Part shown: in pieces, positions 2,255 through 28,351 of the stretch | Position numbering within the stretch: position 1 is the first letter of the stretch | Layout: each line of letters begins with the position of its first letter | Assembly (NCBI RefSeq): GCF_004355185.1 | Contig: NZ_CP037922.1 | Coordinates: forward strand, 2,046,001-2,110,000 | DNA: 64,000 nt | Reading direction: 5' to 3' | Source: Hymenobacter radiodurans | GTDB taxonomy: Bacteria; Bacteroidota; Bacteroidia; Cytophagales; Hymenobacteraceae | The notes under the pieces: model-generated | Seen by the model: only the letters and a program-made list of their open reading frames with translations | Database searches by the model: none | What the model was told of the DNA's origin: nothing | Program-made: the position numbers and the translations under genes

Positions 2255-3430
2255 CTATACTACTTTTCCTTCTTTGGCATACTCCCGCAGAATCCCCTTC
2301 TCTAAGTGCTGGAGCGTGAGAAGATTGCTTTTATCCGCTAGGGCCTCAATCGCGCAGTAGTGGGCTACGTTCAAAATACCGGCACCCGTGAGTTCGTAGC
2401 GCGCTGCCACCTGCAGCCAGTTAATATCATCGGCTATCTGAAGCTGGGGCGGGAAGGTGCTGCGCCAAATGCGGTGTCTTTCCTCAACGCGGGGCATTGG
2501 GAAGTGAATAATCGTCTGGAACCGGCGCACAAACGCGTCGTCGATGTTGCCGCGTTGGTTCGTAGCCAATATGATGAGGCCATTGTAGCTCTCAATGCGT
2601 TGCAGCAAGTAGGCCACTTCCTGGTTGGCGTACTTATCATGGGCATCCCGAATGTCGGTTCGCTTGCCGAAGAGGGCATCCGCCTCGTCGAAGAACAAGA
2701 TCCAATCCTTGTTTTCAGCCTTAGCAAAAAGGGTGGCCAGATTCTTCTCCGTCTCGCCGATATACTTGGATACCACACGGGACAAGTCAATGCGGAAAAC
2801 GTCTTTATTGGTGCTTTTCCCCAGCAGGCTGGCAGTTAACGTTTTGCCGGTGCCGGGTGGGCCGTAGAAAAGCGCGCGAAAGCCGGGCTTGATTTTTTTG
2901 CGCATGCCCCACTTATGCAGGAGCGTTTCGCTGTGCGTAATCCAGTGCCGAATTTCCTGAATCTGCTGCAGCGTGTTTGGGTGGAGCACTAGGTCATCCC
3001 ACTCCATTTCCGTACGAATGTGCTCGGCCGGAAATTCCATACTAAACCGGGGCGGGCTGACGGTGCCCGTTATGAGCAACTCCATAACTTCCGAATCTGG
3101 GATAAGGCGGCCACTCAGGTGCGGTTCGCCCGGCTTCGGATCTTCCAAGGCAATGATGTGTTCTCGGGCAAAGAAATGCTTTGGGTTAAATAAGTCGTAC
3201 AGCGCCAGGCGCTTTTCTAGGTCGTTGCCGGCCAGAATATACAGCGCCGTTTCGCCCGTTGGTAGCAGGCCGCGGTGGTTGGCGCCCCTTACGCCCCCAA
3301 ACTCCGGCAACTCTCCACCATCTGGCAGGCAGTCACGGATTAGTGCATCGAAAAAACCCGGCTGTAAATGCGGGGCCAGCGCTATCATTAAATAGAGCAG
3401 TTCGACTTCGCTAAGCTGGGTCTGGGCCAC
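2255..3430 (-). CDS. eCIS AAA+ ATPase (Afp15-like)
   Basis: This 391-residue AAA+ protein of the type found in nearly all eCIS loci is thought to act in assembly or cargo handling in the producer cytoplasm. Visible motifs are Walker A GPPGTGKT (about 190-197), Walker B ILFFDEAD (244-251), the sensor-1 region ILATNQRGNIDDA, and an arginine-finger candidate RR at 302-303. The N-terminal 150 residues form a non-conserved helical domain. The start is GTG at 3430, which overlaps the TAG stop of the small ORF upstream by one base (TAGTG), indicating translational coupling. It is the last core gene of the cluster. Confidence 0.95.
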   Translation of the reverse strand: MAQTQLSEVELLYLMIALAPHLQPGFFDALIRDCLPDGGELPEFGGVRGANHRGLLPTGETALYILAGNDLEKRLALYDLFNPKHFFAREHIIALEDPKPGEPHLSGRLIPDSEVMELLITGTVSPPRFSMEFPAEHIRTEMEWDDLVLHPNTLQQIQEIRHWITHSETLLHKWGMRKKIKPGFRALFYGPPGTGKTLTASLLGKSTNKDVFRIDLSRVVSKYIGETEKNLATLFAKAENKDWILFFDEADALFGKRTDIRDAHDKYANQEVAYLLQRIESYNGLIILATNQRGNIDDAFVRRFQTIIHFPMPRVEERHRIWRSTFPPQLQIADDINWLQVAARYELTGAGILNVAHYCAIEALADKSNLLTLQHLEKGILREYAKEGKVV

Positions 3431-3573
3431 TAGGGAGGTAAAAACCGTGGCTTCGTTGGCATCGAACGAGGGTCTGGTGGGGGCTTGGTAGGCGGCTCAC
3501 TCGGTACTAAGGTCAGGCGCCAGACGGTATACGCCCGCAAATACTCCAGGGCCAAGGTGAGGTTGTTCATCAT
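3430..3573 (-). CDS. Small ORF (47 aa) coupled to the eCIS ATPase
   Basis: The ORF runs from ATG at 3573 to a TAG that shares a base with the ATPase GTG start. It begins 18 bases after the stop of the DUF4157 gene, so it fits the operon without a gap. The product begins MMNNLTLALEYLRAYTVWRL, with the look of a short helix, and ends in a proline-rich tail (PPTKPPPDPR). No family is recognised. It could encode a small chaperone-like peptide or simply serve as a leader that couples translation of the ATPase. ATG at 3570 is an equally good start. Confidence 0.5.
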   Translation of the reverse strand: MMNNLTLALEYLRAYTVWRLTLVPSEPPTKPPPDPRSMPTKPRFLPP

Positions 3574-3591
3574 ACCGCCGCATCGATTAAT

Positions 3592-6500
3592 CTACTCGCC
3601 GGGGCCTCTGAAATCAGGCCCCACCTGGTTGGTATACCTTGTGTCCCGGCTGCCTAGGCTTAGGTTAGCCTTCAGAGACATGAGCTTAAACGTAGTCAAA
3701 TTTCGGTTCCAGTTTTCGCGTGCCGCCTGAGCAAGGTTGTTTCCCGGGGTGTTGCCTTTACCGCCAAAGCTCCAGTGTTCCGCAATGGCCGGGTCATGGT
3801 CGGGGGAGGCGTGCGCTACCGGAATAACCGCCTCGCCGTGTAGCGTCTGAGTGTAGCCGTGACTGGCTTCCAGCGCCGCCGAAGCCTGGCTCAAGAATTT
3901 GTCCTTACTGCCCGGAACCAGCCGGGCGGGCAGCAAACGAGCTTTGATGCCCGCCCGGCTGGCGGCGGTATCCGTGTAAAGCGTCTCCCGGATGTACTCC
4001 CGATGATGAAATTGAGGCAGCAACACGAAGTTGACGCCACTCCCCACCAGGGTAACTAAGTTGGATGAGTGCCGGAAATTATGACGCCGCCAGCTGGTGC
4101 CTTCACCGGCGTAAGAATGCGTGTTGGAGCCGCCATTCAGGGTGGTAGTGGAGAAGGAAAGGGTAGTGACCCCAGCTTCTTTACTTCTTTTTAGAACACT
4201 TCCCGAGCTGCTAACGCGTTCAAAGCCTTTGGCCTGCAAATTCTCAATCCAGCTGCCGGGAGCCACTAGCAATGGCGCCGCTACCGGAGCCGCGCCTGGC
4301 GTGGCGGGGGCATCGGCTGGTTCTTTTTCGGATGGCTTGCTTCCTCTCGGGTTCAACTGCCCCACCACAAACCAGCGGCCGCCTCTGGCTTCCACGTCCA
4401 GGGATTGAAACTGATACCGAAGTCGAATAGCCGTCAACAGGGGCCGAATGACCGCCGCCCCAATCCGGCGACCCGATATGGCGTTCACGACGGCCACCGC
4501 CGCGCTCAGGCCGGCTTCCAGGCGCTGCGCCGGGTCCTTTGGCACCCCAGCCCCGACTACTGCTTTGCCCGCTTTTTGCAGCAGTTTGACCGCCGGCTGC
4601 AGCACCTTATCCACGACAAAGCCCAGGGCCCGATCAACGGGCGTTTTCAGCTGCCGGATAATGGTGCGCACTTTGTCGGCTAAGTTGCCCAGCCCCAGTA
4701 GCTTGGCGAGAAAGTCAATGCCGGCCACGATGGCGTTTTTTAACCCAAAAATCACCTTCGCGGCAATGCCGCCGATGTTGCCCCGCACCGCCATCTCCAC
4801 CCCGTCCAGAAACGCATTGACCAAAGCCACAATGCGCTCGATGTTGTCCATCAGAAAGGTGATGCCAGCATAAATGGCCTGCGCGGCTTTAATAAATGCC
4901 CCCGCCGGGTTGAAGAGCGTGACGATATAGGCCAGTACCTTTTTGATCGTCTCGTACAGTACCTTTTTCTTGATTTTCTCGAAGATCTCATCCACGGTAT
5001 TGGCCAGCACTTCTTTGATATGCACCCAGAGTGCCCCGATGTCGGTGCGGGCCAGCTGGATCAGCTTGTTTACTTCCTGGGCGCCCTCCACCCCTTTTTC
5101 GATGGCGGCAAACACGGGGTCGCCGAGACGTTTGCGGGCAATTTCGCGGAAGTTGTCGTACGTCAGCCCGATGACTTGCAGGGCTAAGCTAAACAGGCCG
5201 GCCGTATCTAGCTTGGGGGCAATTTGATGCCCGCCCCGCCAACTTTGCCCCCCAGCCAGGCAAAGAAGCCCTCCACTAGAAACGTATCGATGTTCTCGAC
5301 GAACGTGGCAAACCCTTGCTTGATACCCGCCGCCAGATTTTCCAGAAACCGAATAGGATGCGCGAGAATGTCGCCAATCACGTGCGCGACGCGCACCAGC
5401 ACGGTCACCAGCAATTCGCCCAACCGATAGATCGTCAGGGCGACTTCCTTAATGAATTCTGCCGCCCGCTGAATCCAGGTTTTGCGCACATCCTCGTAGA
5501 TTTTATCAAAGACTTGGCGCAGGGAGTCCACGTCTTTCTTGTAGGATTCGGCCAGGCTGCGGGCCAGCTCGGTCTGCTTTTCAGCCACGCCCGACTCCAG
5601 GTTGGCGAACTGCACGCGGTAGGTTTCCATGGCGTCGCCTACCAGCGTTTGCTGCTTGGTGCTCAGGCCATTATAAAAGGTGTCGGCTTTCGCTTTCCCC
5701 CGCTGAATAGCGTCCACCGCCTTATTCAGATCGTCGGCAACGCGCTGGGCAATGGCCCCAATCGTGAGGTCCATGGCATCAATAAACTTTCGCTTCTCGG
5801 CCTCAAATACCTTCTCAATAGCCTCGGTATCCTCGCCGAAGAAAAAGGCCTTTACGCCCCAGCCATGAATGGCATCCAGCTGCTTTTCCACCCGCTTCTC
5901 GAAGGCATCTTTGGCATCTCTGGAGTCCTTTTCAAACGTGTCCTCCACGTACTTGCCCAGGGCGGTAAAGATGTCTTCAACTTCTTTTTTGGTGCCGTTA
6001 TAAATCGTTTCCAGCTCGCCTTTAATGCGCTTTTGCTCGTCTTTATCCGCTTTGTCGTGCGCACTTTGCTTGGTGAATACCGTTTTGAATCCTTGACTAC
6101 GCAAGGCGTGCATCATGCTGAAATCGGCCTTGGCTTCTTTGTGGGCCTGCTGCTGAGCGCCGCCGATTACCTGTTGCTCCTCGGCCCGATATGTTTGGGG
6201 AGCCGCCGCTGCCTGGGCCTGCGCGCCTTTTTTGGTGGCGAGGGCCTGCTGAAACTTGGGCTCATTGGAAGCGGCAAACTGCTCTTCGGTGTTGTGGTTT
6301 TTGGCCATCAACGCATCCAGCGACTGGCTGTCCTGCTCCAGCGAGATTTCGGCGTCCGTTCGGGGCTTGGGCGCGGCCGCGGCCGGGTCGATGAGTGGGG
6401 GCTTGGCGCCGGCTTTTTCTTCCACCAAGGGTGTGGGCTGGTGGGTTGGCAGCTGGCTGTCGGGCGGCGCGGGCTTGTGCGTTTCGGCGGTGATGGGCGC

Positions 6501-7580
6501 TGCGACGTTTTTGTTTTCCTCCTTAACCTGTTTCTGAACGTTGTTTTTGATGCCCTCCAGCGGCTTCTCCTGCTTGAACCGCTGCGCGTCGCTCTTGCTG
6601 TGGGGTAGCTTCTTTTCCAGCTCGTTGAGCTGGGCCTGCAATACCTTTTTGAACTGCGCGGCCGTAAATTTTTTGGTGGCGTCCTTGTTCGTAGCGGCCG
6701 TTTGGTTGATGACTTCCAGGTGTTTTTTGCGGTCGTTGTAGGCTTTCTGCTCCGCCACCGGAAGGTGCGCCGACGCGGCCACCGCCGTGTTTTTTACTTC
6801 GGGTGACTTATGCCCTTGCTGAGCCTTTTTTACGTGCTGGGTTTGGGTAATTACTTTCCCAAATTCCGGGTCCTCCTGCGGCGTTTTGGGCGCCGTTTGA
6901 GTTGGTGTTTGCGCCTCTTGGGCGTCTTCAGTTTCGGGGCCTTGCTGCGGAGTTGTTTCGGGACCAGCGGTGCCTGAAATCTGAGGTTTACCCTCGCTAG
7001 TTTTGCCCCCCAGCGCTGGCGTTTCAGTAGTAGCCGGATGGGGTTGGGCAGGTGAATGAGCAGCGGGTTCGGTGGGCGTAACCAGGGGCGTTGGAGCGGG
7101 TTGCTCCCTGGGGTTTACCCTGACCGCGCCCTCCTGCCAGGCGTGGTAAAGCCCTTGGGCCAGCAGGCTTTTCCCGGGCGCCGCAGCCGGTTGAAATTCA
7201 CCCTGGCCCAGGAATAGGTGCTCCTGAAAAACCACCGCCTGCGCCTGCAGCTGCTGCGTAAGCTCCGTAGCCTGCTTATCCTGGTGCAAACGAATGGAGC
7301 TGAAATCGGCCGACAGGTGTCGCTCCGCCGCCCGCCGAAAGGCCTCGGGTAGGGGTGCTCCGCTCCCCGGGAGCGGCGCCGTACTTGCTCGCCCCTGCAC
7401 TACTAGATCGGGCCGATCAGCGGCCGGGCGCAGTACTTTATGCGCAGGATGGGTGTGGGTGGCGGGCTTGGCGGGTCGGAAAAAATCGCTCCGACCGGCT
7501 TGCGCAAAGAACGGCTGAGCCGTCTGCGTGGCCGCCAACGGGGGAGTGACATGGACCGACTTTGCTGCCTTAATTTTCAT
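3592..7580 (-). CDS. DUF4157 eCIS-associated large protein (frame break near 5215-5219)
   Basis: Read as one protein of about 1329 residues, it has an N-terminal DUF4157 domain (about 77-150), a long Lys/Gln/Glu/Pro-rich linker, coiled-coil segments, and a C-terminal amphipathic region (FNPAGAFIKAAQAIYAG, then LLGLGNLADKVRTIIRQ) that regularly accompanies DUF4157 in eCIS loci. DUF4157 usually ends in an HExxH-like motif; here it reads LLAQGLYHAWQE, so the first His and the Glu are lost and metalloprotease activity is unlikely. The frame breaks at a run of five G on the + strand (5215-5219). One more base joins GIKLPP to KLDTAGLFSLALQVIGLT, the usual continuation. DUF4157 proteins are cargo candidates or loading factors of these particles. 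Confidence 0.85.
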
Positions 7581-7652
7581 TCCGATTTCGGGCTTGGCTA
7601 AACAACTTTACTTTGAAAAGCAGCGTGGGTTTATTGCTTCAGTATGAACTGT

Positions 7653-8791
7653 TTAAATCCACTCAACCCAGAGCAAGCCGGGCATCCACGGTAGTCGAAA
7701 GACGCCCATATTCCAGGGCAGCGATTCGAGCAAAATATCGGGGCCTCGCTGCTCCACCTGCAGCAGCCACTCATGGGGGGGCGACGGGAAAGCTTGCCGG
7801 GCCGCTGCAGGAAAGTAGCGCGCAATCCAGCAGGGGAGGTGTGCTTCAGGGCTTGCCAATGCTGCACCACGGCTTCCAGCAGGGCCATACTTTCGGCTTG
7901 CTCCGTTTCGCTCAGTTCCACCGCCCCACCAAGCGGCGTTTCGAGCGCCATGCCGCAGAGAATTTTCGGTAGTCCCAGCTCATATTCGGGCGCTGTCACG
8001 GCGCCTGTAGCCAGATAATGCAGCAAAGCCAGCGCCCGCGCTGGCTGCACCAACAGCTCATTCTCCACCACGCCCAGCTGCTCGAAAAATTGTGGGAGAA
8101 AAGGGTGCAGCAACACCAGCCCAGCATCGTCCACGTAGATGGCCTCGGCCGCCGGTTCAGGTTGGTCGGGCCGCGTAGACGCAGTGCTTAAAGGCTCTGC
8201 CGAATCAGCCTGATGATTCGGCTCGTCGAGCGGGCCTATTCGCTCCTGTAGCAGATGCTGAAAACTTGGCGAGAACTGCTCGCTGAAGCGCTGCTGGGCG
8301 TGTTTCGTTGTTAGCCGCCGCTCAACTTCTGCTTTATACTCGGCCGGTACTTCGTTTGAGAGCAAGAGTTGCTCCACCGCTTGTTCCAGCGTTTCCCCCG
8401 GGGACAGCCGAAAATACCAGGGCAGCTGACCAGTCTCTAGAAAGTGTAAAAAAGCCCCCCAGGTAGCCTGGGCCGGAGTTTTTAGCTGGGCTTCCGCATT
8501 TCCGGCGGTAGCGGCCGTGGCGGCTTTTTCCCGGAGTGCCGTTTCCAGCGCCTGCTCTAGCGCCTCCGGCAAAGCGTGCTCGAGCCGTTGCAGGTCCAGC
8601 GCGCCCAGCTGCAGGTCCAGGTGCTCCAGGTAAAGGTGGGCCTGGGCGGGCGCGCACCGCTCCAAGGTGCGCTCCAGCACGGCCGGCAGCCAGTGCTGGC
8701 AGAGCTCGGCAAGCTGCCGCTGCACGGCCAGCCCTTCCGACTCTGTGCCGTTCATTTCAACGTGCACGTATTGCTGCTGAATGAGGTGCAT
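7653..8791 (-). CDS. CIS tape-measure-family protein (frame break at 7775-7781)
   Basis: With one base added this is a 379-residue protein of the contractile-injection-system tape-measure family. Signatures are LERTLERCAPAQAHLYLEHL near the N-terminus, GLVLLHPFLPQFFEQLG in the middle, LVQPARALALLHYLATG, and the typical end HEWLLQVEQRGPDILLESLP followed by PWMPGLLWVEW. The C-terminal part lies in another frame; the switch is at a run of seven G (+ strand 7775-7781), where eight would restore the reading. It starts 2 bases after the preceding stop. The family name implies a role in tube-length control. It is short for a classical tape measure, so the role is taken from family membership. Confidence 0.85.
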
Positions 8792-8793
8792 CG

Positions 8794-11700
8794 CTACGGT
8801 ATAGGCTGTTCAACTTGCCCAACGCAGCCCTTGTCCGTGATGGCCGTGAGCCGCACCGCGCCGCCGGGTTTTTGGAGCTGCGCTTCCACTTTCTGGCCCT
8901 GATAAAAAGGCTCCGTGGGCTGGGCGATAGAGGCATCCCAGATCCAAGCTGTAATCGACTCCTGGGGATATTTTCGACCTTGCCCGTGAACACAAACCCG
9001 TTGTTGTTGGCTTGCCGGTCGATGCTGATAGCGGGCTTTGGATTCGGGCCTTCGCAGAGCTTTTGATACTCGCTGCCGGTGCATTGATTGCGCTCTTGAT
9101 TATCGAAAGCCGGCACTCGGGTTTCTTGGTTGTTTAGCCTGCGGTTAAGCAGAATGGCCCCGTTGAAGGGCGCGCCCGTGGCGTCGGGCTCGTTGGTGTA
9201 GCGCATCAGCAGACTAAAGGTGGGCGTGGGCTTGGCGACGGAAAAGGGCAGCTCCAGGCTAAACCGCTCACACAAAAAGTGCTCGATCCAAAGAATGCCG
9301 AACGGGTCAGTGGCGGCGGGCTCGTAGCTCAGCACCAAGCGGTTGGCCCCAGCTCGGCTCCGAATTCAGCTGTCAGCGCTTGCTGTATACGCTCATTCAG
9401 CTTCTTAATAGCCCCGCCAATGGCGTTGCGGAAGTTGCCGTTGAGCTGACCATTGGGGATCTGAACCAAGGTGGCGGCTCCTTCCAGCGCGAAGTCCTTG
9501 TCGTTGAAGCGAAACTTCACTTCGCCATCCTGCCGGTACGCCTCGTAGGGCGCGCCCTCCACCGGCGGCTGCAGCCACAACCGATAAGCACCCCGCCGCG
9601 ACTGCCCGTCGCAGGGCAACTCGCAGGGTTGCTCGCAGCTGTGCTTGACCTCCACGGAAGCCGTGCATCCCTGCTGGTCTTCCACCTCAATGACGGCGGA
9701 AGTGCCACTCGCAATAGGCTCCGTGACAAGGCTATCACCCGTGACGGGCGCCCCCTTAAACAGGTAAGGCGGGGTGCCGCCCGTAATGCGAATAAAGGAG
9801 CGGTAAGCAGCCGAGCCCTCGCAGGTAAAGTCGGTTTCTTGGAGCAGCAGTTGGGGGGCAATTTCTACGCGCTGCGCTTCCGTAGTCGTGCCGGCCGCGT
9901 CCCGCAGCACTAAGCGGTGCGCCCCGACCGGCAGCGTAACGGGCCCATGGAGGGGCGCAAACTCGCCATCGTTTACTTGAACTTGGTAGGGCGCGGTGCC
10001 GCCGGTGGGGGTTATTTCTACGGCTGCGCCGTTATTGGCTGTCGTGCAGCCAAGCTGGGTGGTGAAGGCGAGCGGCTGACGGCAGGAGTGCTGCACGCGC
10101 TGGGTGGCGGTGCAGTGGCGGCTGTCGGTAATGATAATCTCCGTTTCCGTGTCGCCGGGCAACGCGTCGCTGAGGTAGGCGGTGCTATCCACCGTGCCCC
10201 GATTGGCCGAGAAAGGCGGGGTACCACCGCTGACCTGCATGCCAACCACGTATTCGTTGTTGTCGCCAACGCAGTCGAAAACAGGCTCCAGCAGGCGCAG
10301 TTGGGGGGCAATTACAACCGGCTGCGGCGCCGATTCCACCGCTTCCGCATCGCGTAGGGTAAGCGTGTGCGAGCCGGCACTCACCAGTATGGCTCCGCTG
10401 AGCGGCCGATACTCCTGGGTGTCCAGCTTGAGGCTGTAGGGCGGCAGGCCACCCTCGGGCGTCACTTGCACCTCAGCCTCGTTATTGGGATTGGTGCAAC
10501 CGACTTGAATGGTAAACGTGGGCGGCGCTTTGGGCAGCACAAACTGCACCGGCGCGCAATCGGAGCAGCAGAGGTAAGGCAGGAAAAAGTCGGCGATAAC
10601 CGTCCCGTCCGCCAATTCATTAACGGCCGCCGCAATCACTTTCTCGGCTTCATTCTGGGGCGCGGGTGGGGCTACGGCGCTCAGGTTGGGCGCCATGCCG
10701 GTGAGCGTGCCAAGGATAAAGCGCACGTCCTCATCCACTACCAGCTCCTTATTAGCGCTGATGCGCCCCAGAGCTTCCGATACCGCCTGCGAGTTGAGGC
10801 GGCCCGCCTCCGCAAGACTGGTAACGGCCCTCGTAAAAGCCGTGGCCGGCAGGTTGGTCAGATCAAACCGCCGCAGCCCCAGGCCGGGCCGCCGCTGGTC
10901 CGGGTCATCATGGTACACCACGATAAACGTACCGCCCAGCGGCACCCCGGCCTTGTGCTGAATACCGGGGTGTTGCCGCAAAAAGTAACTGAGAAACTGC
11001 TTTTGCTTCAGTTCAGTCAGGCGCCGTTGGTATTCAGTCAGCAAGGCGCGAAAAGCCTCCAGACGGCAGTTGTAGAGGATATCTTCCAGGCGGTCGTCGA
11101 GCTCTTCCCACCGCAGGAGGGCCGCGTTGCCCTCCAGGTTGGCCGTCGTCTCTTCGCGCTCCCGCTCGATGGCTTCCGTAACGCTGGCCAAGTCTTGGTG
11201 TCGTTTTTCTAAGCGCGCAAAATCCAGCTGCCGCAGGTCGGGAGTGAGTTGCTCGTATAACTTGGTGATGTAGACCAGCAGGTAGAAAATAATGGCGTTG
11301 GACTGCCCGACATTCTGGGTGTTTAAAAAGTTGATAATCACGCTGGGGTCCAGCTCCGGCAGGGCGCCCGCGGGCAGATTGCTGTACCAGTCCTCGAAAA
11401 ACCGCCCCAGGGTTTGGGGCTGCACCAGAAAATCGGGCGCGCACTGCGCCAGCAAGGGCAGCTTGGGCTTGGCGGGCGCCGTTACTTTGGTGCGACGCTC
11501 AAAAGGCAGGTCATAGAAGTACTGCGTTTGCTTGCAGAGGAAGCACGTCAGCTCCGCTCTCAGCGTGTCGTAAAGTGTATCGAGGTCCTGGAACCGGCAG
11601 TCGGCGTCGCTCAGGTCCACGGGCATGGTGGCATCGAACGCGCCCGTGCGCAGGGCAATGATGTCGATGGGCAGGCGGTGGCGGGTTTTCAGCCCCAGCA

Positions 11701-20000: not shown

Positions 20001-20674
20001 GCATCAGCCGCAATTCCCGCCTCGTACGTGGCCCAATCGGGCGCGCCGTTGGGTATCCACTGCGTGGTCAGCCCCGCGGAAACAACCGAGGTGAAGGTGC
20101 TCATGGGGCTGCCCAACATGTTGATCGGCGGCGTGGGCACGGTATCCGTCAGTACTCCGAGCGAGATGCCCGCTTTATGGTAGGCAATCAGGCGCCCGAA
20201 GCCAGGGGCCAGCTGGGCTGAAATAAGGTTTTGCAGCACGCTTTTCAGCCCTATTTCGGGCGGGAGCGTGGCCGCCATCATGTCCAGCTGCCGGGCCAGC
20301 GTGGCCGCGCTGCTGAACAGAAACCCTAGGTGGTTTTTCAAGCCCGGCTCATCAGCCTGGTTATCCAGCGTATTCAGAAATGTAAAGAAGGCGCTGACCT
20401 GAGCTTTGTACTGCTCCACGTCCTGCACCGCTGCCGTGGCCAGCTGCAAGGATACATCCTGGGCAAAGAACTGCTGCCAATTCCCGGCGGCTACATTCTT
20501 CTCATTGTAGTACTTCAGATAGCGGGCGTAGGCCTGGGCGAATACCATGCTGTGCGCGGGCGTGCGCTCGTCTACCGGGGCTGAGGCGGGCGCCAGGGCG
20601 CTGCTCGCGCGCTGCGCCTGACTCGTGCCCTCGCGGCTAAGTTTGAGCGGGTCCGTGTTCTGCGTGCAGGCCAT
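17055..20674 (-). CDS. Baseplate J-like protein, Afp11-like (frame break at 19707-19711)
   Basis: Joined, about 1206 residues. The N-terminal third is helical (AYARYLKYYNEKNVAAGNWQ); the C-terminal half carries the baseplate-J core (RLRHKDRALTLWDYEHLVLE, FPRIFKVKCINH, then SVSLKVRLYEGYDEAFYVKQ and SPWAFPGRESSISFGG). The frame breaks at five G on the + strand (19707-19711). A sixth joins LRLREKPP to KPAHAHVLLELAKNV. It starts 15 bases after the gp25 stop and ends in a 4-base ATGA overlap with the next baseplate gene. It is a structural wedge protein of the baseplate in the assembled particle. Confidence 0.9.
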
Positions 20675-20689
20675 GTCCGTAGCGGGTCG

Positions 20690-21129
20690 TTAGCGTTCGG
20701 GCAGTTGGTTGAGGCTGGTAGTCAGGTTGATATCGGTGCCTTCTTTTTTGTAGAAGGGAAAGACGAAGTTGAAGCGTGAGTTGGTGGTGCGCACCCGGTA
20801 GATGACCTCGATGAGCACCACGCCTTCCAACTCGCGGCTGCTGTCTAGGCGCACTTCTTCCAACTTAATGCGGGGCTCGTAGTACAGGATGACCGATTCT
20901 ATTTTGTCGGCCAGCAGGGTTTTGGTGGTCGTATCGAGGCTTTCAAAAACCAGCTCCTCCAGGTTGCAGCCAAACTCCGGCAACATCACCCGCTCCCCCA
21001 GCGTGGTCGATAGCAAAATCTCTAAGCTGGAAGCAATATCAGCCTCTTGTTCCAGCATTTTTACCCCCCGCTCCTGGGGAGTGAAGGTGGGGGGAATGAC
21101 CAGCCGCGACCAAGGAAAACGAGATTCAT
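20690..21129 (-). CDS. gp25-like baseplate protein, Afp9-like (frame break at 21089-21094)
   Basis: A 146-residue GPW/gp25 family protein: a lysozyme-like fold that joins baseplate and sheath. The family's usual opening FLGRGWSFPP is encoded from ATG at 21129. The rest, including EQEADIASSLEILLSTTLGE and RVMLPEFGCNLEELVFE, lies one frame away. The switch is at six G on the + strand (21089-21094), where seven restore SFPPTFTPQERGVKM. Without the added base the only start is a TTG giving an atypical N-terminus, so the break is well supported. It sits between the PAAR and baseplate-J genes, the normal order. Confidence 0.9.
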
Positions 21130-21194
21130 GGCAAGAGTTATTTTGCTGGATGAGCTGCTTCAACTGCGAATACTGCTTTTCAGAAGCGACTTAT

Positions 21195-21463
21195 TCAGCC
21201 ACCAATGAGCACCGTGGGCATGCCCGGCCCGATGATGGCCCCGCCCGACGCGGTTACGTCGCCGAAACGGGCCGCGGGCCGCCCCCCGATCAGCACCGTG
21301 AGCGAGCCTTTCACGATGGCATCGGCCCCGCACGTGTCGCCCAGGCGAGCCGCGGGCAGCCCCCGATCAGCACCGTGGCCGCCCCCGGCGGTAGGATAGG
21401 GGTAGGTGCCCCACTGGTCGCGGGGCTGGTAATCAAATCAGAAACGCGGGCCGCAGGAAGCAT
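21195..21463 (-). CDS. PAAR-domain spike tip protein (frame break at 21360-21364)
   Basis: After one added base this is an 89-residue PAAR protein, the cone that sharpens the spike. It begins MLPAARVSDLITSPA and has three copies of TVLIGG, two followed by PAAR-F/L-GD, which is the repeating PAAR motif. The break is at five C on the + strand (21360-21364). The second repeat copy has six C at the equivalent place (about 21284-21289), which is internal evidence that one base is missing. The gene lies between the VgrG-like spike and gp25. The first His/Cys ligands of the fold are not obvious, except DTCGAD. Confidence 0.87.
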
Positions 21464-21507
21464 TTTTTTAGATGATTGTGTGTAGCATGGGTTTGCGGGT
21501 GTGGTCT

Positions 21508-23304
21508 TCAGTTGATGCGGACCAAGCCGCCCTGAACGGTGGTGGTGGCACTGCCTTTCACGGCGGTGCTGGCCGAGGAAAGCTCAGCACTGCTGGTGCC
21601 CTGGGCCGTGAAAGCCGCCTGGGCCTTGAAGTTCAGATTCAGCCCTTCGGCTTTAAGGTCTTTGCTGGCTTTCAGGATGATATCCTTGCTGCTTTCGATA
21701 GTGATGCCGGCCTCGTTGAGGATGAGTTTATTGCCGTTCTGGTCTTTGATTTCTATCGTTTTGTCGGCTTCCGAAAGCCTAATGCTATTGCCGCCGGGCG
21801 TGGCGAACACCAGCTCTTTTTTTTCGTCATCAAAGGTCATTTTTAGCTTTGCCCGCGACACGTATCCCTTTTCATGGTTTGGGTCGGCGGGCGGAACCGG
21901 GGCCGGTTTACTGCTGCTGTGGCACATGCCCAGCACCACGGGGTAGCGGGGGTCGTCGTGCAGAAATCCCACGATGACCTCATCCCCGATTTCGGGGCGG
22001 AAATAGGTGCCGCGCTGCGGGCCCGCGTCCAGGGTGGCAATGCGGGCCCACGTGCCTTCCTGCTGCTCACTGATCAGCGGCAGCCGCACCTTGATGCGGT
22101 CTTCGCCGTCGGGGTCGCCTTCCAGCCGGGTCACTACGCCCGTATGCAGGCCACTGACGGCCGGCAGCAAGCCCGCGGCCGGCAAGGGGCGCAGGTTGTA
22201 GGTATCGGCAAAGGGCTCCGGACTAAGGCCAAACTGCACGTCGGTTTGCCAATTGCCCCGGGCCACCTGGTGCCGCACGCCCACCACGAGCATCTTGCCC
22301 TGCAGGCGCTCGCCGATGCCTTGTACGTCGATGAGCTTGCCTGGCACCACACCCGCAAAGCCCTGAAACTGGGCCCGGCCCCGTACTTTGCTCAGGCGTG
22401 CGCGCTGCAAACTGCCATCGGCCCAGGCCTTGAGCTCGGGCGGGGAGAGTTTGCCCCCGTGCCGTAGCACATGCGCCGAGCCCCCCATGACTTTGGACAG
22501 CACATCGGGCGAGAGGTTGCCGTTGTTGGTGGTTGCCGGCTCCGTAGCATCCTCCTGGGCTACTTTCTGTTCGCTCGCGTTCCAACTGGTGGCCTTGATG
22601 CCGGGGCTCTGCAAACGGGCGTCCATCTCGGCATCAAGCTCCAGAATGGTAGAGCCAAACGTGGCTGTCACGGCGGGTTCCTGCTTAAGGTTGGGTTTAG
22701 CAATTCGGATTTTGCCGTTCTCCACCATCACCAGTAGCCCATTCGCCTCGGCCCGGCACAGCACGAAGTCCCAGTCGGTGGCCTCGTACTGCACTACTTC
22801 CCGCAAGGTGGGCTGCGTGGCTTCGATGTCCCGACCGAGTTGGTAGCGGCCGATGATTTCGTCCAGAATGTCGCTGTCCTTTTGGTCGGCGTAGTAGTGG
22901 CTTTTCAACCCGCTGGTCATTTTTACGGCCTCATCGCGGCATTCCACAATCAGGAAGCTGCCGCTCCGGCGAATCTTGACGCTATGCTTGATCACGATGC
23001 CCGTAAACACGGAGGCCTCCTGCGAGCGGTAGCCCAGCTTGATTTCTATCTTTTTGCCCGGAATGAAATAGTTGGTGTTGCCCACCGCAAACGTGCCGCG
23101 CGACGCCTCACCGTCCTGGATATGCAGGGTGGCGGACGGTATCCGGTTTACTTCCCGCATCACCGCAATCGACTGCACGTGAATAGTACCAGGAATCTCG
23201 GTGCCTTCCACCAGAATGGTAGCCGTGCAGACATCGGGCGTGGCGGGCGTAGGAATAGTGGCGGTACTGGGGGGCATTTTGTTAGCAGTAGAGGATAAAA
23301 TCAC
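21508..23304 (-). CDS. VgrG-like spike protein, Afp8-like
   Basis: An intact protein of about 598 residues that forms the trimeric spike under the tube. The first part is the phage late-control-D-like region (IKLGYRSQEASVFTGIVIKH and YQLGRDIEATQPTLREVVQY, then DWDFVLCRAEANGLL). An OB-fold segment follows (RIKVRLPLISEQQEGTWARI and RGTYFRPEIGDEVIVGFLHD), then a beta-helical tail rich in 'I.I.....I.L' repeats (KTIEIKDQNGNKLILNEAGI). Start is GTG at 23304; ATG at 23277 (MPPSTATIP) is an equally likely start. It has no C-terminal effector extension. Confidence 0.93.
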   Translation of the reverse strand: MILSSTANKMPPSTATIPTPATPDVCTATILVEGTEIPGTIHVQSIAVMREVNRIPSATLHIQDGEASRGTFAVGNTNYFIPGKKIEIKLGYRSQEASVFTGIVIKHSVKIRRSGSFLIVECRDEAVKMTSGLKSHYYADQKDSDILDEIIGRYQLGRDIEATQPTLREVVQYEATDWDFVLCRAEANGLLVMVENGKIRIAKPNLKQEPAVTATFGSTILELDAEMDARLQSPGIKATSWNASEQKVAQEDATEPATTNNGNLSPDVLSKVMGGSAHVLRHGGKLSPPELKAWADGSLQRARLSKVRGRAQFQGFAGVVPGKLIDVQGIGERLQGKMLVVGVRHQVARGNWQTDVQFGLSPEPFADTYNLRPLPAAGLLPAVSGLHTGVVTRLEGDPDGEDRIKVRLPLISEQQEGTWARIATLDAGPQRGTYFRPEIGDEVIVGFLHDDPRYPVVLGMCHSSSKPAPVPPADPNHEKGYVSRAKLKMTFDDEKKELVFATPGGNSIRLSEADKTIEIKDQNGNKLILNEAGITIESSKDIILKASKDLKAEGLNLNFKAQAAFTAQGTSSAELSSASTAVKGSATTTVQGGLVRIN

Positions 23305-23332
23305 CCATTATCTTATGCGAAAGGCCCTTTGC

Positions 23333-24052
23333 TCAGACGGGGGCCGCCGTTTTATCGAGGGGAGGAAATATCAGGGACTGGCCCGGCTCCAGATGCCGGA
23401 AGTTGCTGAGGCCGTTGGCCGCGGCCACGTGCAGATAGTAGCGGGCGTCGCCGTAGATGCGGTAGCAGAGCAGGGGTAGCGTATCGCCCCCTTTCACCTG
23501 CTGCACGTGGGTCAGGTCCGGGGATTTCTTGTCCTCTTTGGCCGCCCGAATCTGTTCCTCGATGCTGCTTTTAAACTTCACGCGGGCCACCGCCCGAATG
23601 GGGCTGCCATCCGGATTAAACAGCTTATAGGTGACGCTCAGCTCGGTTACGCGGCCCTTAAAAATGGAATGGCGGCCCCACACCAGCTTGAAGTGCCGCG
23701 GCTCGTGGGCGTCGCCTTTGTACTCAATCAGTACTTGCTTGAGCCGCTTTAAATCATCGGCGATATCGGCGCGGGGCTTGCCGTCGATGATGCCGGTGTT
23801 GTCGAACAGAAACTCAAAAGTGATTTCCTCCGGCTCGGTGTACTCGTACTTCAGTTGCTTGCCACTGGTGCCCTGGCCCTGGTCAAACTCCGAGAACTTG
23901 AGCTTGTAGTCCAGCGTGTAGCTTTCCGGGTTGATGAGGGCCTCGAAGTACGCGTCGTTGCCGATGGCCTCCCTAATGCCACCTCGCTCTGCTTCCTTCG
24001 AGTCTTTAAAGCCCAGAATGAGCAGCTTTTCCAGTTTGCCGCCGGTTGCCAT
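23333..24052 (-). CDS. LysM tube-baseplate adaptor, Afp7-like (CIS tube protein)
   Basis: About 239 residues from ATG at 24052. The N-terminal region LLILGFKDSKE and ALINPESYTLDYKLKFSEFD, then EPEEITFEFLFDNTGII, match the CIS tube/gp53-like family. The C-terminus carries a LysM-like module (VQQVKGGDTLPLLCYRIYGD then HLEPGQSLIFPPL), which in T4-like systems contacts spike and baseplate. Its ATG overlaps the TAA of the DUF5908 gene (TAATGG), so the two are coupled. An in-frame upstream start would add an unlikely basic leader overlapping DUF5908. Confidence 0.92.
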   Translation of the reverse strand: MATGGKLEKLLILGFKDSKEAERGGIREAIGNDAYFEALINPESYTLDYKLKFSEFDQGQGTSGKQLKYEYTEPEEITFEFLFDNTGIIDGKPRADIADDLKRLKQVLIEYKGDAHEPRHFKLVWGRHSIFKGRVTELSVTYKLFNPDGSPIRAVARVKFKSSIEEQIRAAKEDKKSPDLTHVQQVKGGDTLPLLCYRIYGDARYYLHVAAANGLSNFRHLEPGQSLIFPPLDKTAAPV

Positions 24053-24240
24053 TAGCGTTCTTTTTTCTCTTGCAGAATTTGCAATACCTGTTCCACGCAC
24101 TCCGCCACCATGGCTTGCTTCTCGGCCTCCGTGCTGCCGTTGCGCGCGGGCACCAGCCCCGGCAGCGGCGCCGCGTGGTGGCCGTTTTCCGCTGTGTTCA
24201 CCGTGAAGCGAATGTGCAGTTCCTTGATTTCAATCGGCAT
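24052..24240 (-). CDS. DUF5908 small eCIS protein
   Basis: About 62 residues from ATG at 24240: MPIEIKELHIRFTVN, the family's standard opening, then a Gly/Pro-rich stretch and a C-terminal helix (EAEKQAMVAECVEQVLQILQ). DUF5908 genes are regular small members of Bacteroidota eCIS and T6SS-iv-like operons; their role is not known to me. It overlaps the adaptor gene downstream. A start 15 bases earlier is possible, but the conserved opening favours 24240. Confidence 0.88.
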   Translation of the reverse strand: MPIEIKELHIRFTVNTAENGHHAAPLPGLVPARNGSTEAEKQAMVAECVEQVLQILQEKKER

Positions 24241-24288
24241 GGAAAGGAGGGACAAGTGGTACGGTAACGAAAGAGCCGGACTTCTTCG

Positions 24289-24726
24289 TTACCGTACCGT
24301 GAAGTAGCGGTACATGAGTTCGAGCGTTTCGACCACAATGGCATTGTCCGTGGAATTCAGGTCGGATATCTGCCATTTCTTCGGAATAGCCTGGGCGATA
24401 ATCCAGGCGCGCAGGGGCTCACTTTTTTCATTCAGGAGAATGATGTTCAAGTCCGTAGGTTGAAAGTCACGGTCCCGGAAGGCAGCCAGGCACCACCGGA
24501 TGACGTCCGAGTCGGTGAGCATGCCCCGCTTAAGCATTAGCTCAGCGTATTTAGTGCGCACCGGCAGCTTGTGGGTAAAGCGGTTTTCGCCGCCTTCGCG
24601 AAACTCCTCCATCTCGTACTCCACTGCCAGCCCCGACACCGACTGAAAGCCCGTGTCGTGCTTGTTCTTGCTGATGCCGAATTCTACGCGGTAGTAGAAT
24701 CCCCAGGGCGGATAATAGCCGGCCAC
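24289..24726 (-). CDS. Inner tube protein 2 (gp19-like)
   Basis: This 145-residue phage tail tube protein begins YYPPWGFYYRVEFGISKNKH and continues DTGFQSVSGLAVEYEMEEF, the usual gp19 N-terminal hairpin with 'F..VSGL'. It ends VETLELMYRYFTV, as family members do ('E.LEL.Y..F'). The start codon is GTG at 24726. It lies 12 bases after the first tube gene. In eCIS the second tube paralogue usually forms the tube layer nearest the baseplate. Confidence 0.92.
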   Translation of the reverse strand: MAGYYPPWGFYYRVEFGISKNKHDTGFQSVSGLAVEYEMEEFREGGENRFTHKLPVRTKYAELMLKRGMLTDSDVIRWCLAAFRDRDFQPTDLNIILLNEKSEPLRAWIIAQAIPKKWQISDLNSTDNAIVVETLELMYRYFTVR

Positions 24727-24738
24727 GGTTGCGGAGCG

Positions 24739-25176
24739 TTAGATGTTCATCAGCTTCAGGCCTTCGTGCGCGATTTCGATACTTTCCACGGCCACTTCGT
24801 TGGCATCCGATTTCAGGTCGGGGGCCGTGACTTTCACCGGAAAGCAGCGCGTGGCCGACCAAGCCGCCACGGGTTCGTGCTTCTCATTAAGCAGGCGAAT
24901 GACCACGTCGCGGCGCCCGCCTACGCGCTCGTTGGTGATGTCATTCAGCCATTGATTGAAGTCGAAGTCGCCCTCAAACTTGCCGCGCTTCATGGTCACG
25001 TTCTCGTTCTTGCCCAGGCCCGGCATTTTGAGGGTGGTGAAATCCCGGCTGTCGCTGTGCCGGTACTCAATTACCTGCACCTGCATGGAGAGGCCGGTAA
25101 CTTCGGTGAAGCTCATCTTAGCGCCTCCCCAGTCCACCTGAAAGTGAAATCGGGGCAATGGATATTCTTGTGCCAT
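24739..25176 (-). CDS. Inner tube protein 1 (gp19-like, major tube)
   Basis: This 145-residue gp19-family protein (MAQEYPLPRFHFQVDWGG, FTEVTGLSMQVQVIEYRHSD, then TLKMPGLGKNENVTMKRGKF and ESIEIAHEGLKLMN) forms stacked hexamer rings inside the sheath. It is the closer match of the two to the typical major tube subunit and lies directly after the sheath gene, as expected. Confidence 0.94.
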   Translation of the reverse strand: MAQEYPLPRFHFQVDWGGAKMSFTEVTGLSMQVQVIEYRHSDSRDFTTLKMPGLGKNENVTMKRGKFEGDFDFNQWLNDITNERVGGRRDVVIRLLNEKHEPVAAWSATRCFPVKVTAPDLKSDANEVAVESIEIAHEGLKLMNI

Positions 25177-25234
25177 AGGGCTTTGCGAAAAAAAAGTGAA
25201 GAAGCCGGAAAAGCTTCGGACCTACAGGTTCAGA

Positions 25235-26667
25235 TCAGGACTCGGCTAACTTGTGCGAGAACTTGAGGATGATGAACTCGGCGGGGCGCACTACCGCCAT
25301 GCCCACTTCGACGTTCAGGCGACCTTCCAGAATGTCCAGGGCGGTCATAGTTTTGCCCAGGCCCACGGCCACGTAAAACGCGTGTTCGGGCTTGATGCCT
25401 TGCAGGGCGCCCTGCCGCCAGAGCGTGGTCAGGAAGTTTTCAATCATGGCCTGCACCCGCACCCAGGTATTGGCGTCGTTGGGCTCGAAGACGAACGATT
25501 CGATGGCTTTCTTGACCGATTCTTCCACGAAAATGAAAAAGCGCCGCACGTTCACGTAGCGCCACTCGTTGTCGTTGCCCGCCAGGGTGCGGGCGCCCCA
25601 TACCAGCGTGCCTTTGCCGGTAAAAGCGCGAATGGCGTTCACGGATTTGCCCCCCGCCACATCCACGTTCATCTGGTCCTGCTCGAGGGTTGAAAACTGG
25701 ATGGATGGCTGAATCACGGCGCTCACGCTCAGGTTGGCCGGCGCCTTCCACACGCCCCGGCTGGTATCGACGGCGGCGTAAATGCCCGCCACGGCCGCGC
25801 TGGGGGGCATTTTGCAGATCATGTCGCGGATAGCCGCTTTGGCCAGTTCATACAGGCGGTTGCTGCCAACCTTCAACGTGTCGAGCTTGGCCGTAGTCGC
25901 GGCGCCCCCGTTGATGCTGTGGTCCACGTCGATCTTGGTCTCGTCAATGGCCAAATCGAGGACCGTATCCAGGTTGGGACCGTAGGCCGCCCCGTATTTC
26001 AGGTTCTTGGTGCCAATGCCTTTGTTGCGAAAGTTGCCAACGGCAGCCAGCAGATCAGCCGTTGGGTCCGACAGCGATTCGCTGTCGCCGTGCACATCCA
26101 TAATCACGAAGCGGTCCTTCAACAATTCGCACTGCGCCAGGGCGTCGTCCAGCAATGTTTTGAAATCATCAATGCTCAGCTGTTGGGCCTCTGGAATGAC
26201 GATTAGAGTAGGCTCGTCTACATTCACTAAAGTTTTCAGTCCATCGTGTAAATCTTTGAGCACCAAAGCCCCCCCAACGCTTTATAAGTACCCGCCGAAA
26301 CGATGTAGCAGGGGCCGCCGCCGTTGGCAAAAAACAGCTGCATCGCATAGTACAGGATGTGCTTGGAGCGGTCCGCTTCCGCAACTTTCCCCACCGCTTT
26401 TATCTCCTGGGTTTGGCTGTCGACCTGCGTTTCCGCCACCGCTACCTTAATCTTTTCCTCGGGCTGCGGTCCGCCAAAATACTTCTCGTAGCCTACCATG
26501 GAGGTTATGCGCACCGGTTTTCGGACCAGGTCGTCGGCCACCAGATCCTCCGCCTTTTGGGTGTAGCCGATGAAGGCGGGAATAGCGGTTTCGACGGGGG
26601 CAATGGAGGGCGGGAACTTGGGAATCTCTTCTATGTAAACTCCCGGCGTTTTGTAGAGGGCTGGCAT
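25235..26667 (-). CDS. Contractile sheath protein (frame break at 26269-26275)
   Basis: About 477 residues once one base is added. The N-terminus MPALYKTPGVYIEEIPKFPP and FIGYTQKAED is the classic sheath opening. The C-terminal part has VNVRRFFIFVEESVKKAIES, FVFEPNDANTWVRVQ and FLTTLWRQGALQG, the conserved sheath end that forms the interlocking mesh. The frame breaks at seven C on the + strand (26269-26275); eight join AGTYKALGG to ALVLKDLHDGLKTL. Only one sheath gene is present, whereas Afp has three. If the break were real, no functional sheath could be made. Confidence 0.93.
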
Positions 26668-26703
26668 GGCATAAAGCTGAGTAAGGTTTTGTACGACAAT
26701 TGC

Positions 26704-27717
26704 TTATTCAAATATCTCCGAGACGAGACCCGTGATTCGGCCGGGTACGGCGCTATCGAAGGAGGCCTTGCTGAGACCGGTCAGGGGCTTGCGCTTGGTG
26801 CCCGCGTTGCCGCGCAGCGTGAGTGGCAACGCCGCGGGCTCGGCCGAGACCGGGGCGCCGCTGTGCTTGTTGAAGTATTGCCGGAAAGTGGCGCGGTTGC
26901 GAAAGCGCACCTCAAACACCGGATACGCCGCTTTAGCCAGGCCCCCGCTGGTGCAGCTATACTCGGCATTGCCCGGCCGGATAGCCGTTATTTGCACCAC
27001 GGCAAATACGTCGTCGGGGATGCCTTCCGTTAGCTGGATGCCGCGGGTAGGCAACCCCGTCAGGCCCGGCGGGGGCACAATAGCCGGTACATCGCCCTGG
27101 TGCAGGTATACCGGCCTATCGGTAGCCTGGGCGCTGATCTGCTGGGTGGCCGCGCCGGGCTGATCACTGGTGAGCTGCTCCAGCGCCGCTCCCGACAGGA
27201 TGAGCGATTCTACCCGGTCGGTAGGCGTGAGGGCGGGTATTTCCTGGGAGAGAAACAGGGCTCGGCTGGCCCCAGCACCGCGGGCTACGCCGGTCAGGTT
27301 CGAGAAAACGGGTACGTTCTCCTTGTAGCGAAGCACACGCTTCGATGGCTCATCGTAGAAATCATAAATCTTGCGGGCGGGCAGCGTCAGGGCCGTGTAG
27401 TCGAAAAACTGGCTACTGTGGACCCGAACGGTAAACTCCAGCACGGCATCGTCGGGAATGACGGCACCTTTTTTTGTGGCCACAATGCCCCCCAGCGCCG
27501 TGCTTTTAAACACGCCGCCCAATCCTTGCAAGGCCTTAGCGGTGGCGGGTGTCGGCGCAAAGGAAAGAAAGGAGCGCACATCGTACGTGAGTAGGCGCTG
27601 GAGCCGCTCGGCTTCCGGCAACGCATCAAACACGGTCTGGCCTTCATCCAGCCAGTAGTGGTGGAGTAGTCGGACCTCAAAAAGGCGCTGGTAGCCACTG
27701 ACGATGCGCTCCGCCAT
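26704..27717 (-). CDS. Unknown eCIS protein between cap and sheath genes (337 aa)
   Basis: This intact protein has no domain I can name. It begins with ERIVSGYQRLFEVRLLHHYW, followed by TYDVRSFLSFAPTPATAKAL. The middle is beta-rich (VLEFTVRVHSSQFFDYTAL), and ARKIYDFYDEPSKRVLRYKE follows. It starts one base after the DUF4255 stop and sits directly before the sheath gene, so it is surely part of the operon. Position suggests a particle-end component, possibly a cap adaptor linking tube, sheath and cap as described for AlgoCIS. This is inference from gene order, not from sequence similarity. Confidence 0.75.
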   Translation of the reverse strand: MAERIVSGYQRLFEVRLLHHYWLDEGQTVFDALPEAERLQRLLTYDVRSFLSFAPTPATAKALQGLGGVFKSTALGGIVATKKGAVIPDDAVLEFTVRVHSSQFFDYTALTLPARKIYDFYDEPSKRVLRYKENVPVFSNLTGVARGAGASRALFLSQEIPALTPTDRVESLILSGAALEQLTSDQPGAATQQISAQATDRPVYLHQGDVPAIVPPPGLTGLPTRGIQLTEGIPDDVFAVVQITAIRPGNAEYSCTSGGLAKAAYPVFEVRFRNRATFRQYFNKHSGAPVSAEPAALPLTLRGNAGTKRKPLTGLSKASFDSAVPGRITGLVSEIFE

Positions 27718-27718
27718 G

Positions 27719-28351
27719 TTATTGTCCGGTTGGCTGGTGATGGTAAAAGTCGGTGGCGATGTCCGTGATCAGGCCGCTTTCGGTGTGCGCCGCCTTGAAC
27801 TTCAGATCGAGCATGCGCAGGCGGTACAGCACAAACGGGTATTGCTTGCCGCCCAGCGTGCCCCAGAGGTGGTTTACCTCCTCCAGGGAAGGCGAGTATA
27901 AGTCGAAAATCAGCTTGAAGCGTTCGAGCTGATCCAAGGCATTGGTAGGTGCATTCTGGCTGATCGATTCGGGCGCCACGCTTTCCGGCGTAAACACGTT
28001 CTGGGCCTGAAAAAACCGGATGCCCCGCGAGAGAATCAGCAAGGCATTGATGTAGTCGCTGTGCGTGGCCGCGACCAGAATTTGGAAGTTTAAAAAAACG
28101 GGTGGGTTCTCGTACGTGGCCGTGAGCTTGACATCGTTGCGCACGTAATGGGGGAGGTTTTTCAGCGTGGTTTCCTCCGTAATATTGACTACGGAAAGTA
28201 TCAGCCGGTCGCGCGGCACGCCCCCGTTTTGTCCCCCCAAGCCTTCCGCCAGATTACCCAGTTTCGCTTCATTGGGAGGCGTGACCAGGCCATAAGCCGC
28301 CAAGTGCTTGTTTAGCTCATTGACCACGATGGAGAGTGCATGCGAGATCAT
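27719..28351 (-). CDS. DUF4255 cap / tail terminator protein (Afp16/Pvc16-like)
   Basis: This 210-residue DUF4255 protein is the hexameric cap that ends tube and sheath. It opens MISHALSIVVNELNKHLAAY, followed by RLILSVVNITEETTLKNLPH and NPPVFLNFQILVAATHSDYI, then ALLILSRGIRFFQAQNVFTP, and it ends with YPFVLYRLRMLDLKF; all are typical of the family. It is the first gene of the cluster, with about 870 bases of non-coding DNA upstream that should contain the operon promoter. Confidence 0.93.
   Translation of the reverse strand: MISHALSIVVNELNKHLAAYGLVTPPNEAKLGNLAEGLGGQNGGVPRDRLILSVVNITEETTLKNLPHYVRNDVKLTATYENPPVFLNFQILVAATHSDYINALLILSRGIRFFQAQNVFTPESVAPESISQNAPTNALDQLERFKLIFDLYSPSLEEVNHLWGTLGGKQYPFVLYRLRMLDLKFKAAHTESGLITDIATDFYHHQPTGQ

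Follow-up and report, generated by a model that had tools for sequence, protein, structure and literature searches.

An AlgoCIS-type extracellular contractile injection system in Hymenobacter radiodurans, split by frame changes in the genome assembly

A 64,000-nucleotide stretch of the Hymenobacter radiodurans genome, called the window below (positions 2,046,001-2,110,000 of the 4.73 Mb contig C2; the assembly totals 4.92 Mb in two contigs), carries a cluster of 16 contractile injection system genes. It is likely that these encode an extracellular contractile injection system (eCIS) of the AlgoCIS type which is intact in the living lineage and looks broken only in this assembly. The parts, their order, the AlgoCIS-like features and a block of DNA common to Hymenobacter sp. 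BT188 are established by sequence. Coordinates are those of the window unless stated. The genome under study is G000, that of H. jejuensis is G032, and G010, G024 and G047 are further relatives.

Gene content and order

The 16 genes were recognised with Pfam profiles and by matches to chains of solved structures. All are on the minus strand and run from 28351 down to 2255 in the order cap, cap adaptor, sheath, two tubes, DUF5908, CIS_tube/LysM adaptor, spike, PAAR, gp25, two wedges, fibre, tape measure, DUF4157 protein and ATPase. The set of Pfam matches is far beyond chance and the cluster is real. Sheath, tube, spike, PAAR, gp25, J wedge, Pvc16 cap, tape measure and ATPase, which make up the eCIS core set, all lie in this single cluster and are linked to a DUF4157 protein (PF13699, 3e-17), as is also expected of an eCIS. 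The first-pass annotation of this DNA had listed every core part of an eCIS on one strand and in order. All the parts that it named are present, on that strand and in that order, but the list had overlooked two, the cap adaptor (Alg16B type) and the tail fibre (Alg19/Cis19 type).

The cap protein (27719..28351; Pvc16_N, PF14065, 1e-32; Alg16A type) is a single open frame, 97% identical to that of BT188. The putative cap adaptor (26704..27717; Alg16B type), also a single open frame, is 76% identical to its H. jejuensis counterpart and matches chain 7adz_1A, 'cap adaptor protein (Algo2)'. The single sheath gene (25235..26667; PF17482/PF04984, sheath C-terminal domain 1e-14) has one frame change, which divides it into open reading frames (ORFs) at 26236-26667 and 25235-26266, and is whole in H. 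jejuensis and BT188. It is followed by two gp19 inner tube genes (24739..25176, PF06841, 6e-43; 24289..24726, PF06841, 4e-41), a DUF5908 gene (24052..24255; PF19265, 4e-21), the tube/LysM adaptor (23333..24100; CIS_tube PF19266, 8e-49, with a Phage_tail_X match at 0.004 that is under the cut-off) and the Alg8-type gp27/gp5 spike (21508..23304; base_V PF04717, 3e-22; GPD PF05954, 3e-11). We take the DUF5908 protein to be the plug of Alg6/Afp6 type, the LysM adaptor to be of Pvc7/Alg7 type and the ATPase of Pvc15 type; the Alg, Pvc and Afp numbers of all genes without a structure match are presumed equivalences.

The PAAR tip gene (21195..21463) has one frame change, and its two pieces are 81-85% identical to the whole H. 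jejuensis gene (PF05488, 4e-23). The Alg9-type gp25 wedge gene (20690..21163; PF04965, 5e-26) changes frame near its start, and its G000 frame leaves the N-terminal 9 residues of the H. jejuensis protein unmatched. One frame change is found in the Alg11-type wedge with its spike-cage region (17055..20674; Baseplate_J PF04865, 1e-10; 7aeb_G, 2e-127), which is whole in relatives, and three in the Alg12-type wedge (13351..17073; 7aeb_A, Algo12, 5e-56), two of these being 36 bases apart. Three are also found in the tail fibre, which is of Alg19 or crown Cis19 type with a SprB repeat (8797..13182; 9wt0_a, 3e-45; All3314, 1e-31; PF13573, 4e-10). The tape measure (7656..8791; CIS_TMP PF19268, 1e-91) changes frame near its end, so that profile positions 425-463 are matched only in another frame. 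The DUF4157 (eCIS_core) cargo protein (3592..7580) has one frame change, giving ORFs at 5208-7580 and 3592-5115, and the AAA+ ATPase (2255..3573; PF00004, 5e-29) changes frame near its start.

Relationship to AlgoCIS and the Anabaena system

Sequence comparison assigns the cluster to the AlgoCIS/tCIS type of contractile injection system, where tCIS is the thylakoid system of Anabaena; this type is already known. The best solved relatives of the sheath are All3325 of the Anabaena tCIS (6e-113) and then the AlgoCIS sheath (4e-107), the pyocin sheath reaching only 4e-6. The Alg11-type wedge aligns with 7aeb_G, the AlgoCIS J protein taken as Alg11, over chain residues 164-998. As this alignment spans residues 278-643, where the spike cage of Alg11 has been located (PMC8894135), a cage is probably present here. 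The H. jejuensis orthologue of the Alg12-type wedge matches Algo12 at 2e-101. The fibre protein of H. jejuensis (1,462 aa) matches 9wt0_a, a chain of an AlgoCIS entry, and also the Anabaena crown protein All3314, described as Cis19 of that system (PMC8894136). The identification of chain 9wt0_a as Alg19 is based on the presence of Alg12 in the same entry and on All3314 being Cis19. Alg19 is described as mediating the binding of AlgoCIS to a bacterium (PMC13314943).

The likeness to AlgoCIS of Algoriphagus machipongonensis (PMC8894135 and PMC13314943) extends to a two-part cap with adaptor, a related sheath, a DUF5908-type plug, Alg11 with its cage region, Alg12, an Alg19-type fibre and DUF4157 cargo. 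The present sheath is shorter, however (478 aa in H. jejuensis versus 692), and there is one DUF4157 cargo gene in the cluster, here without HExxH, as against two described for AlgoCIS. The Anabaena tCIS (All3313-All3327; PMC8894136) supplies the closest solved sheath (484 aa) and relatives in Cis19 and Cis12, but the extension described for its Cis12 is unmatched here and no gene like its Cis13 was recognised. The antifeeding prophage (AFP) and Photorhabdus virulence cassettes (PVC) share the core parts, their sheaths Afp2-4 and Pvc2-4 matching at 1e-57 to 2e-33, but have several sheaths where the present cluster has a single one; in PMC8894135 they are given as having no Alg19 homologue, whereas an Alg19-type fibre is present here. 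The eCIS of BT188 and H. jejuensis are the same cluster. DNA identity to BT188 is 91.5% over 33 kb, and the main pieces of the H. jejuensis proteins are 56-90% identical to those of G000 (DUF5908 62%). The H. jejuensis system differs in its whole frames, in having another cargo C-terminus and in having no HopA1 gene.

Frame changes in the cluster

Compared with BT188, nine of the 16 genes change frame internally (sheath, PAAR, gp25, both wedges, fibre, tape measure, DUF4157 protein and ATPase) and seven are open (cap, cap adaptor, two tubes, DUF5908, LysM adaptor and spike). The frame changes are of one base. All 16 BT188 orthologues are in single frames, and many of the window genes match the orthologous H. 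jejuensis cluster in at least two frames. The first-pass annotation had called the system complete. This holds for the gene set, which is full, but is not literally true of the assembly because nine of the genes are split. Domain search can thus make a cluster look complete although the assembly has lost the frame in most of its large genes.

Most of the breaks are most likely length errors in G/C runs of the assembly. Besides the whole frames of BT188, several lines of sequence evidence argue for this. Across 16 genes of the block shared with BT188 (11 eCIS and five second-module genes; tubes, DUF5908, PAAR and gp25 not counted) dN/dS was 0.13, and there were no nonsense substitutions in 9,856 codons. 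Ordinary genes of G000 are split likewise, namely a pyruvate kinase gene (48987-50887, two frames) and, elsewhere, a DEAD helicase and a SusD gene. Plasmid NZ_CP049908.1 of Hymenobacter sp. HDW8 shares 99.74% identity with the first 100 kb of the other contig, C1. The two differ there by 218 substitutions and 40 indels; every indel is one base long, and 37 of them fall in G/C runs of 4-8. This identity also bears out the earlier description of the genome as Hymenobacter-like. Relative to BT188 the block has 33 indels: 20 one-base deletions in G000, three one-base insertions, six of triplet length and four longer and non-triplet. The three insertions all lie outside genes, so that every one-base change within a gene is a deletion.

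A homology-based frame test gave nine frame changes in 24.1 kb for the eCIS (six of 13 rows, one row being a frame antisense to the tubes, and the length limit excluding PAAR), 12 in 90.0 kb for samples from other parts of G000 (11 of 79 genes) and one in 2.5 kb for the rest of the window (two genes). The 79-gene test replaced an earlier, thin control in which 12 genes (13.7 kb) had shown no frame change. Run in reverse on H. jejuensis, the homology-based test found one frame change in 76.9 kb (80 genes). A homology-free frame hidden Markov model was in agreement: its strict events per 100 kb numbered 5.8 across 400 kb of G000, 18.9 in the eCIS, where only five strict events were counted at this setting, 8.5 in the rest of the window and 0.3 in 320 kb of H. 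jejuensis.

Alternative explanations

Several observations weigh against an AlgoCIS-type system that is whole in the living lineage. Frame changes are about 2.8 times denser in the eCIS than in the other samples (37.3 versus 13.3 per 100 kb; p = 0.02), and with BT188 as the reference there were 11 in 31.8 kb versus five in 43.5 kb. The reverse test on BT188 gave six in 74.1 kb, of which three were out-of-frame tails or shadows of the broken genes of G000 itself. The HDW8 indels go both ways (26 and 14) and A/T runs are spared, neither of which is predicted by simple under-calling. The eCIS excess and the sparing of A/T runs stay outside the length-error account, and there may be some real breaks among the eCIS genes. 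With regard to the type of machine, the cap adaptor match (6e-6) is weak and confined to residues 5-117 of 337; lysis genes, at which no search was aimed, did not come to notice; and of the type VI secretion system (T6SS) parts, VipB and TssD (PF17642) were searched, the latter with a control that stayed silent. If the frame changes were true mutations and the system dead, the excess in the eCIS would be explained, and real instability of G/C runs would give the same two-way differences between G000 and HDW8. Real decay is nevertheless distinctly unlikely, and was dropped as the principal explanation given the absence of nonsense substitutions, the dN/dS of 0.13 and the same breaks in ordinary genes elsewhere; that the in-gene one-base changes relative to BT188 are all deletions also argues against it. 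That the G/C runs are contingency tracts switching eCIS genes on and off is very improbable. They are hot spots of length change in a lineage rich in runs of six G (G6), but the same change affects ordinary genes across the sampled genome, the BT188 frames are open and the BT188 contig names are in the style of a short-read assembler. Runs of 5-6 are short for phase variation.

The chance that the cluster is a T6SS or an R-type tailocin is negligible. General contractile-tail homology is all that favours it, while the VipB-type T6SS sheath (PF05943) gave no matches in the whole genome with a positive E. coli control, the pyocin sheath scored 4e-6 against 6e-113 for that of Anabaena, and DUF5908, DUF4157, CIS_TMP and the ATPase are eCIS marks. 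The earlier assignment to eCIS is therefore upheld. A machine that is anchored or cytoplasmic, in the manner of tCIS, T6SSiv or the Streptomyces systems, and is directed at its own cell or works on contact, is unlikely, though less easily dismissed: the best solved sheath relative is that of the thylakoid-anchored Anabaena system, the Anabaena Cis19 is a relative of the fibre, and the failure to notice a lysis gene would suit it. Against this, the Cis12 membrane extension, described for tCIS at residues 610-1100 (PMC8894136), was not matched by the intact Alg12-type orthologue of H. jejuensis, and the cap adaptor and fibre are AlgoCIS-like. No gene in the cluster is left over for a Cis13-like membrane fibre, Cis13 itself not having been used as a query, and no anchoring part was recognised among the cluster genes, TssJLM being outside the search. 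Hydropathy scoring took in 11 of the 16 eCIS proteins, in their BT188 versions, and ten of these had no 19-residue stretch with a mean hydropathy of at least 1.6, the exception being the DUF4157 cargo. The first-pass annotation had preferred free particles to an anchored system. The hydropathy scores and the unmatched Cis12 extension favour that preference, and the particles would probably be released free.

The DUF4157 cargo protein

The DUF4157 proteins of BT188 and H. jejuensis are 70% identical over residues 1-1012, beyond which there is no alignment above chance, and the C-terminal piece in the window is 92% identical to BT188. As Geller et al. (PMC8213781) describe DUF4157 joined to variable C-terminal toxins via long linkers, so sharp a border is the expected pattern. 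The cargo thus seems to consist of a conserved loading part of about 1,012 residues and an exchangeable C-terminal effector part. Cargo and target had both been given as unknown in the first-pass annotation; the cargo can be narrowed to the DUF4157 protein with an exchangeable C-terminus.

An HExxH zinc motif, which is not a defining mark of eCIS, has been noted for the DUF4157 domain (PMC8213781). It is absent from the BT188 protein and from the N-terminal piece in the window. The DUF4157 protein of H. cavernae has HELTH at 220; in a comparison by eye the domain in the window (about 7125-7367) has QGLYH at this site. With the motif missing in BT188 and the window, the DUF4157 branch found here appears to be one without the zinc motif, and a protease role of the domain is unlikely. 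The predicted fold of the C-terminal piece had a mean pLDDT of 50.6. This piece found nothing in Pfam to E = 5 except DUF2573 at 0.22, and no match in the Protein Data Bank. A search specific to the C-terminus gave five proteins at E <= 0.001 among 7,805 candidates, from H. cavernae (the query itself), Larkinella punicea, H. terricola, Hymenobacter GOD-10R and one JGI record.

Distribution and the shared block

Of 61 genomes of the genus, 11 (G000 included) have a CIS_TMP match, as do 19 of the 99 genomes overall, the reference genomes being few and several of them draft. In a sheath tree of 60 rows, to which the window contributed its C-terminal sheath piece only, this piece grouped with BT188 and then with H. 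jejuensis, each at 100/100. The group lies inside a 23-row clade (100/100) with Pseudomonadota, Bacteroidota, Actinomycetota, Nitrospirota and others. H. cavernae and H. terricola fall elsewhere in the tree, and H. negativus lies in the 23-row clade but separately. The tree used 55 of the best 80 of 102 loci; the 25 dropped were mostly longer or cut-off genes with a best match of at most 350 residues. Repeated transfer has been reported for eCIS generally (PMC8213781). The tree fits repeated transfer, though paralogues and binning errors can look alike.

The cluster lies in a 33.3-kb block that is larger than its own span (2255..28351). From 28619 the block extends to the left as far as 4,708 bases outside the window (1..28619 within the window, defined by alignment to BT188 and without strand), and it matches BT188 contig C18, 29155-62512, in one piece at 91.5% DNA identity. 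Some 270 bases separate one end of it from the cap gene, and the other end lies some 30 bases past the LanC gene described below. To the right of 29175 the matches of the window are to different contigs, BT188 C11 and G010 C1, at 80-89%; CIS_TMP has no match in G010. Two stretches of BT188 C18 close to the block, one on either side (23179-28882 and 65703-67370), match G000 contig C1 at 83-86%. The block thus has different neighbours in G000 and BT188. No clean insertion with an empty site was seen in the 40 kb surrounding the corresponding site of BT188 and G010, and no tRNA was found in the window or in seven other scanned stretches.

G000 contig C1 (190 kb) is plasmid-like, and aligns to HDW8 plasmid DNA that is annotated with replication, ParA, tra and metal-resistance genes; the source of HDW8 was Siniperca scherzeri, South Korea. 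The block contig of BT188 might be a plasmid, as the neighbours of the block match the plasmid-like C1, but 10 kb of C18 (154923-164926) matches a chromosomal G000 sample at 87%, which speaks against so simple a view. To the right of the block the window has carbohydrate-degradation genes at 33590-43594 (GH28/pectate-lyase-like, GH88 and GH63-like).

A lanthionine-synthetase-like second module

To the left of the ATPase the block continues with a pro-kumamolisin activation domain (1351..1710, minus strand; PF09286, 3e-11) and a subtilase (1..1338, minus strand, continuing 215 bases past the window start). Further left, to -4,680, are genes for a Cys/Thr-rich protein of 292 aa, an LxmK-like kinase, a HopA1-family protein and LanC. 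The 292-aa Cys/Thr-repeat protein has 12 Cys and no match in the plasmid collection; its gene and those of the kinase and LanC also change frame in G000. The APH-like kinase (PF01636, 2e-8) and the HopA1-family lyase (PF17914, 6e-37), both above cut-offs, form the pair expected of a class V lanthipeptide set, and a kinase and a HopA1-like lyase are described as together dehydrating a peptide (PMC9486802). The match to NF038156 (3e-17) is far under its 315-bit cut-off. The module was not classed as class V because a LanC protein (PF05147, 3e-58) sits where a class V set would have the second APH-like protein, LanX.

HopA1 was found in three of 97 relatives, G000 included. In the other two, G024 and G047, the kinase, HopA1 and LanC genes adjoin one another. 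As G024 has no CIS_TMP match and the trio of G047 is 296 kb from its eCIS, the trio does not depend on an eCIS, and its presence on the block may be hitch-hiking. The block holds both modules and little else, which raises the idea of a joint system in which the product of the six-gene lanthionine module (pro-domain, protease, Cys/Thr-repeat protein, kinase, HopA1-type lyase and LanC) would be carried by, or mounted on, the injection particle. Such a joint system is improbable. A literature search on injection systems and lanthipeptides gave nothing on the combination, judged by title.

An iterated G6 motif

A highly iterated motif, with a consensus of about CT-GGGGGG-C followed by an A/T-rich tract, occurs across the genome, and the window has 28 copies of TGGGGGGC[AT][AT] in 64 kb. 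Counts of TGGGGGGCAA were 554+585 in G000, 482+487 in G010 and 617+555 in BT188, whereas each of the remaining 95 of the 97 relatives had 0-28 (6+5 in H. negativus). The motif is on both strands in each of 19 chromosome stretches (19/19), which rules out strand polarity, and 281 of 360 G6 runs lie inside ORFs. Its density is reminiscent of DNA uptake sequences. A literature search on such a G6 motif found nothing. The motif may be more interesting than the injection cluster.

Significance

The system is ordinary in kind, the G000 cluster being a new instance of the AlgoCIS type. A literature search, with supplementary tables outside its scope, found no report of a contractile injection system or eCIS for Hymenobacter. 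By analogy with the AlgoCIS papers, the particles would assemble unanchored in the cytoplasm and be freed by cell lysis, the Alg19-type fibre would bind a target cell, and then the spike cage would open, the sheath contract and the tube release the DUF4157 protein. Since AlgoCIS binds a co-isolated bacterium, the target would most likely be other bacteria. For release, target and toxicity the guide is this analogy, the present system being known from its genes.

The cluster serves as a warning that completeness by domain search can hide large genes which are out of frame in an assembly. It also adds an AlgoCIS-type system to the genus Hymenobacter, in which two named relatives, BT188 and H. 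jejuensis, carry the cluster with whole frames. Given these whole-frame relatives, the sharp border of the cargo C-terminus and the different neighbours of the block, the loading part, the effector part and the transfer of the system can each be studied separately.

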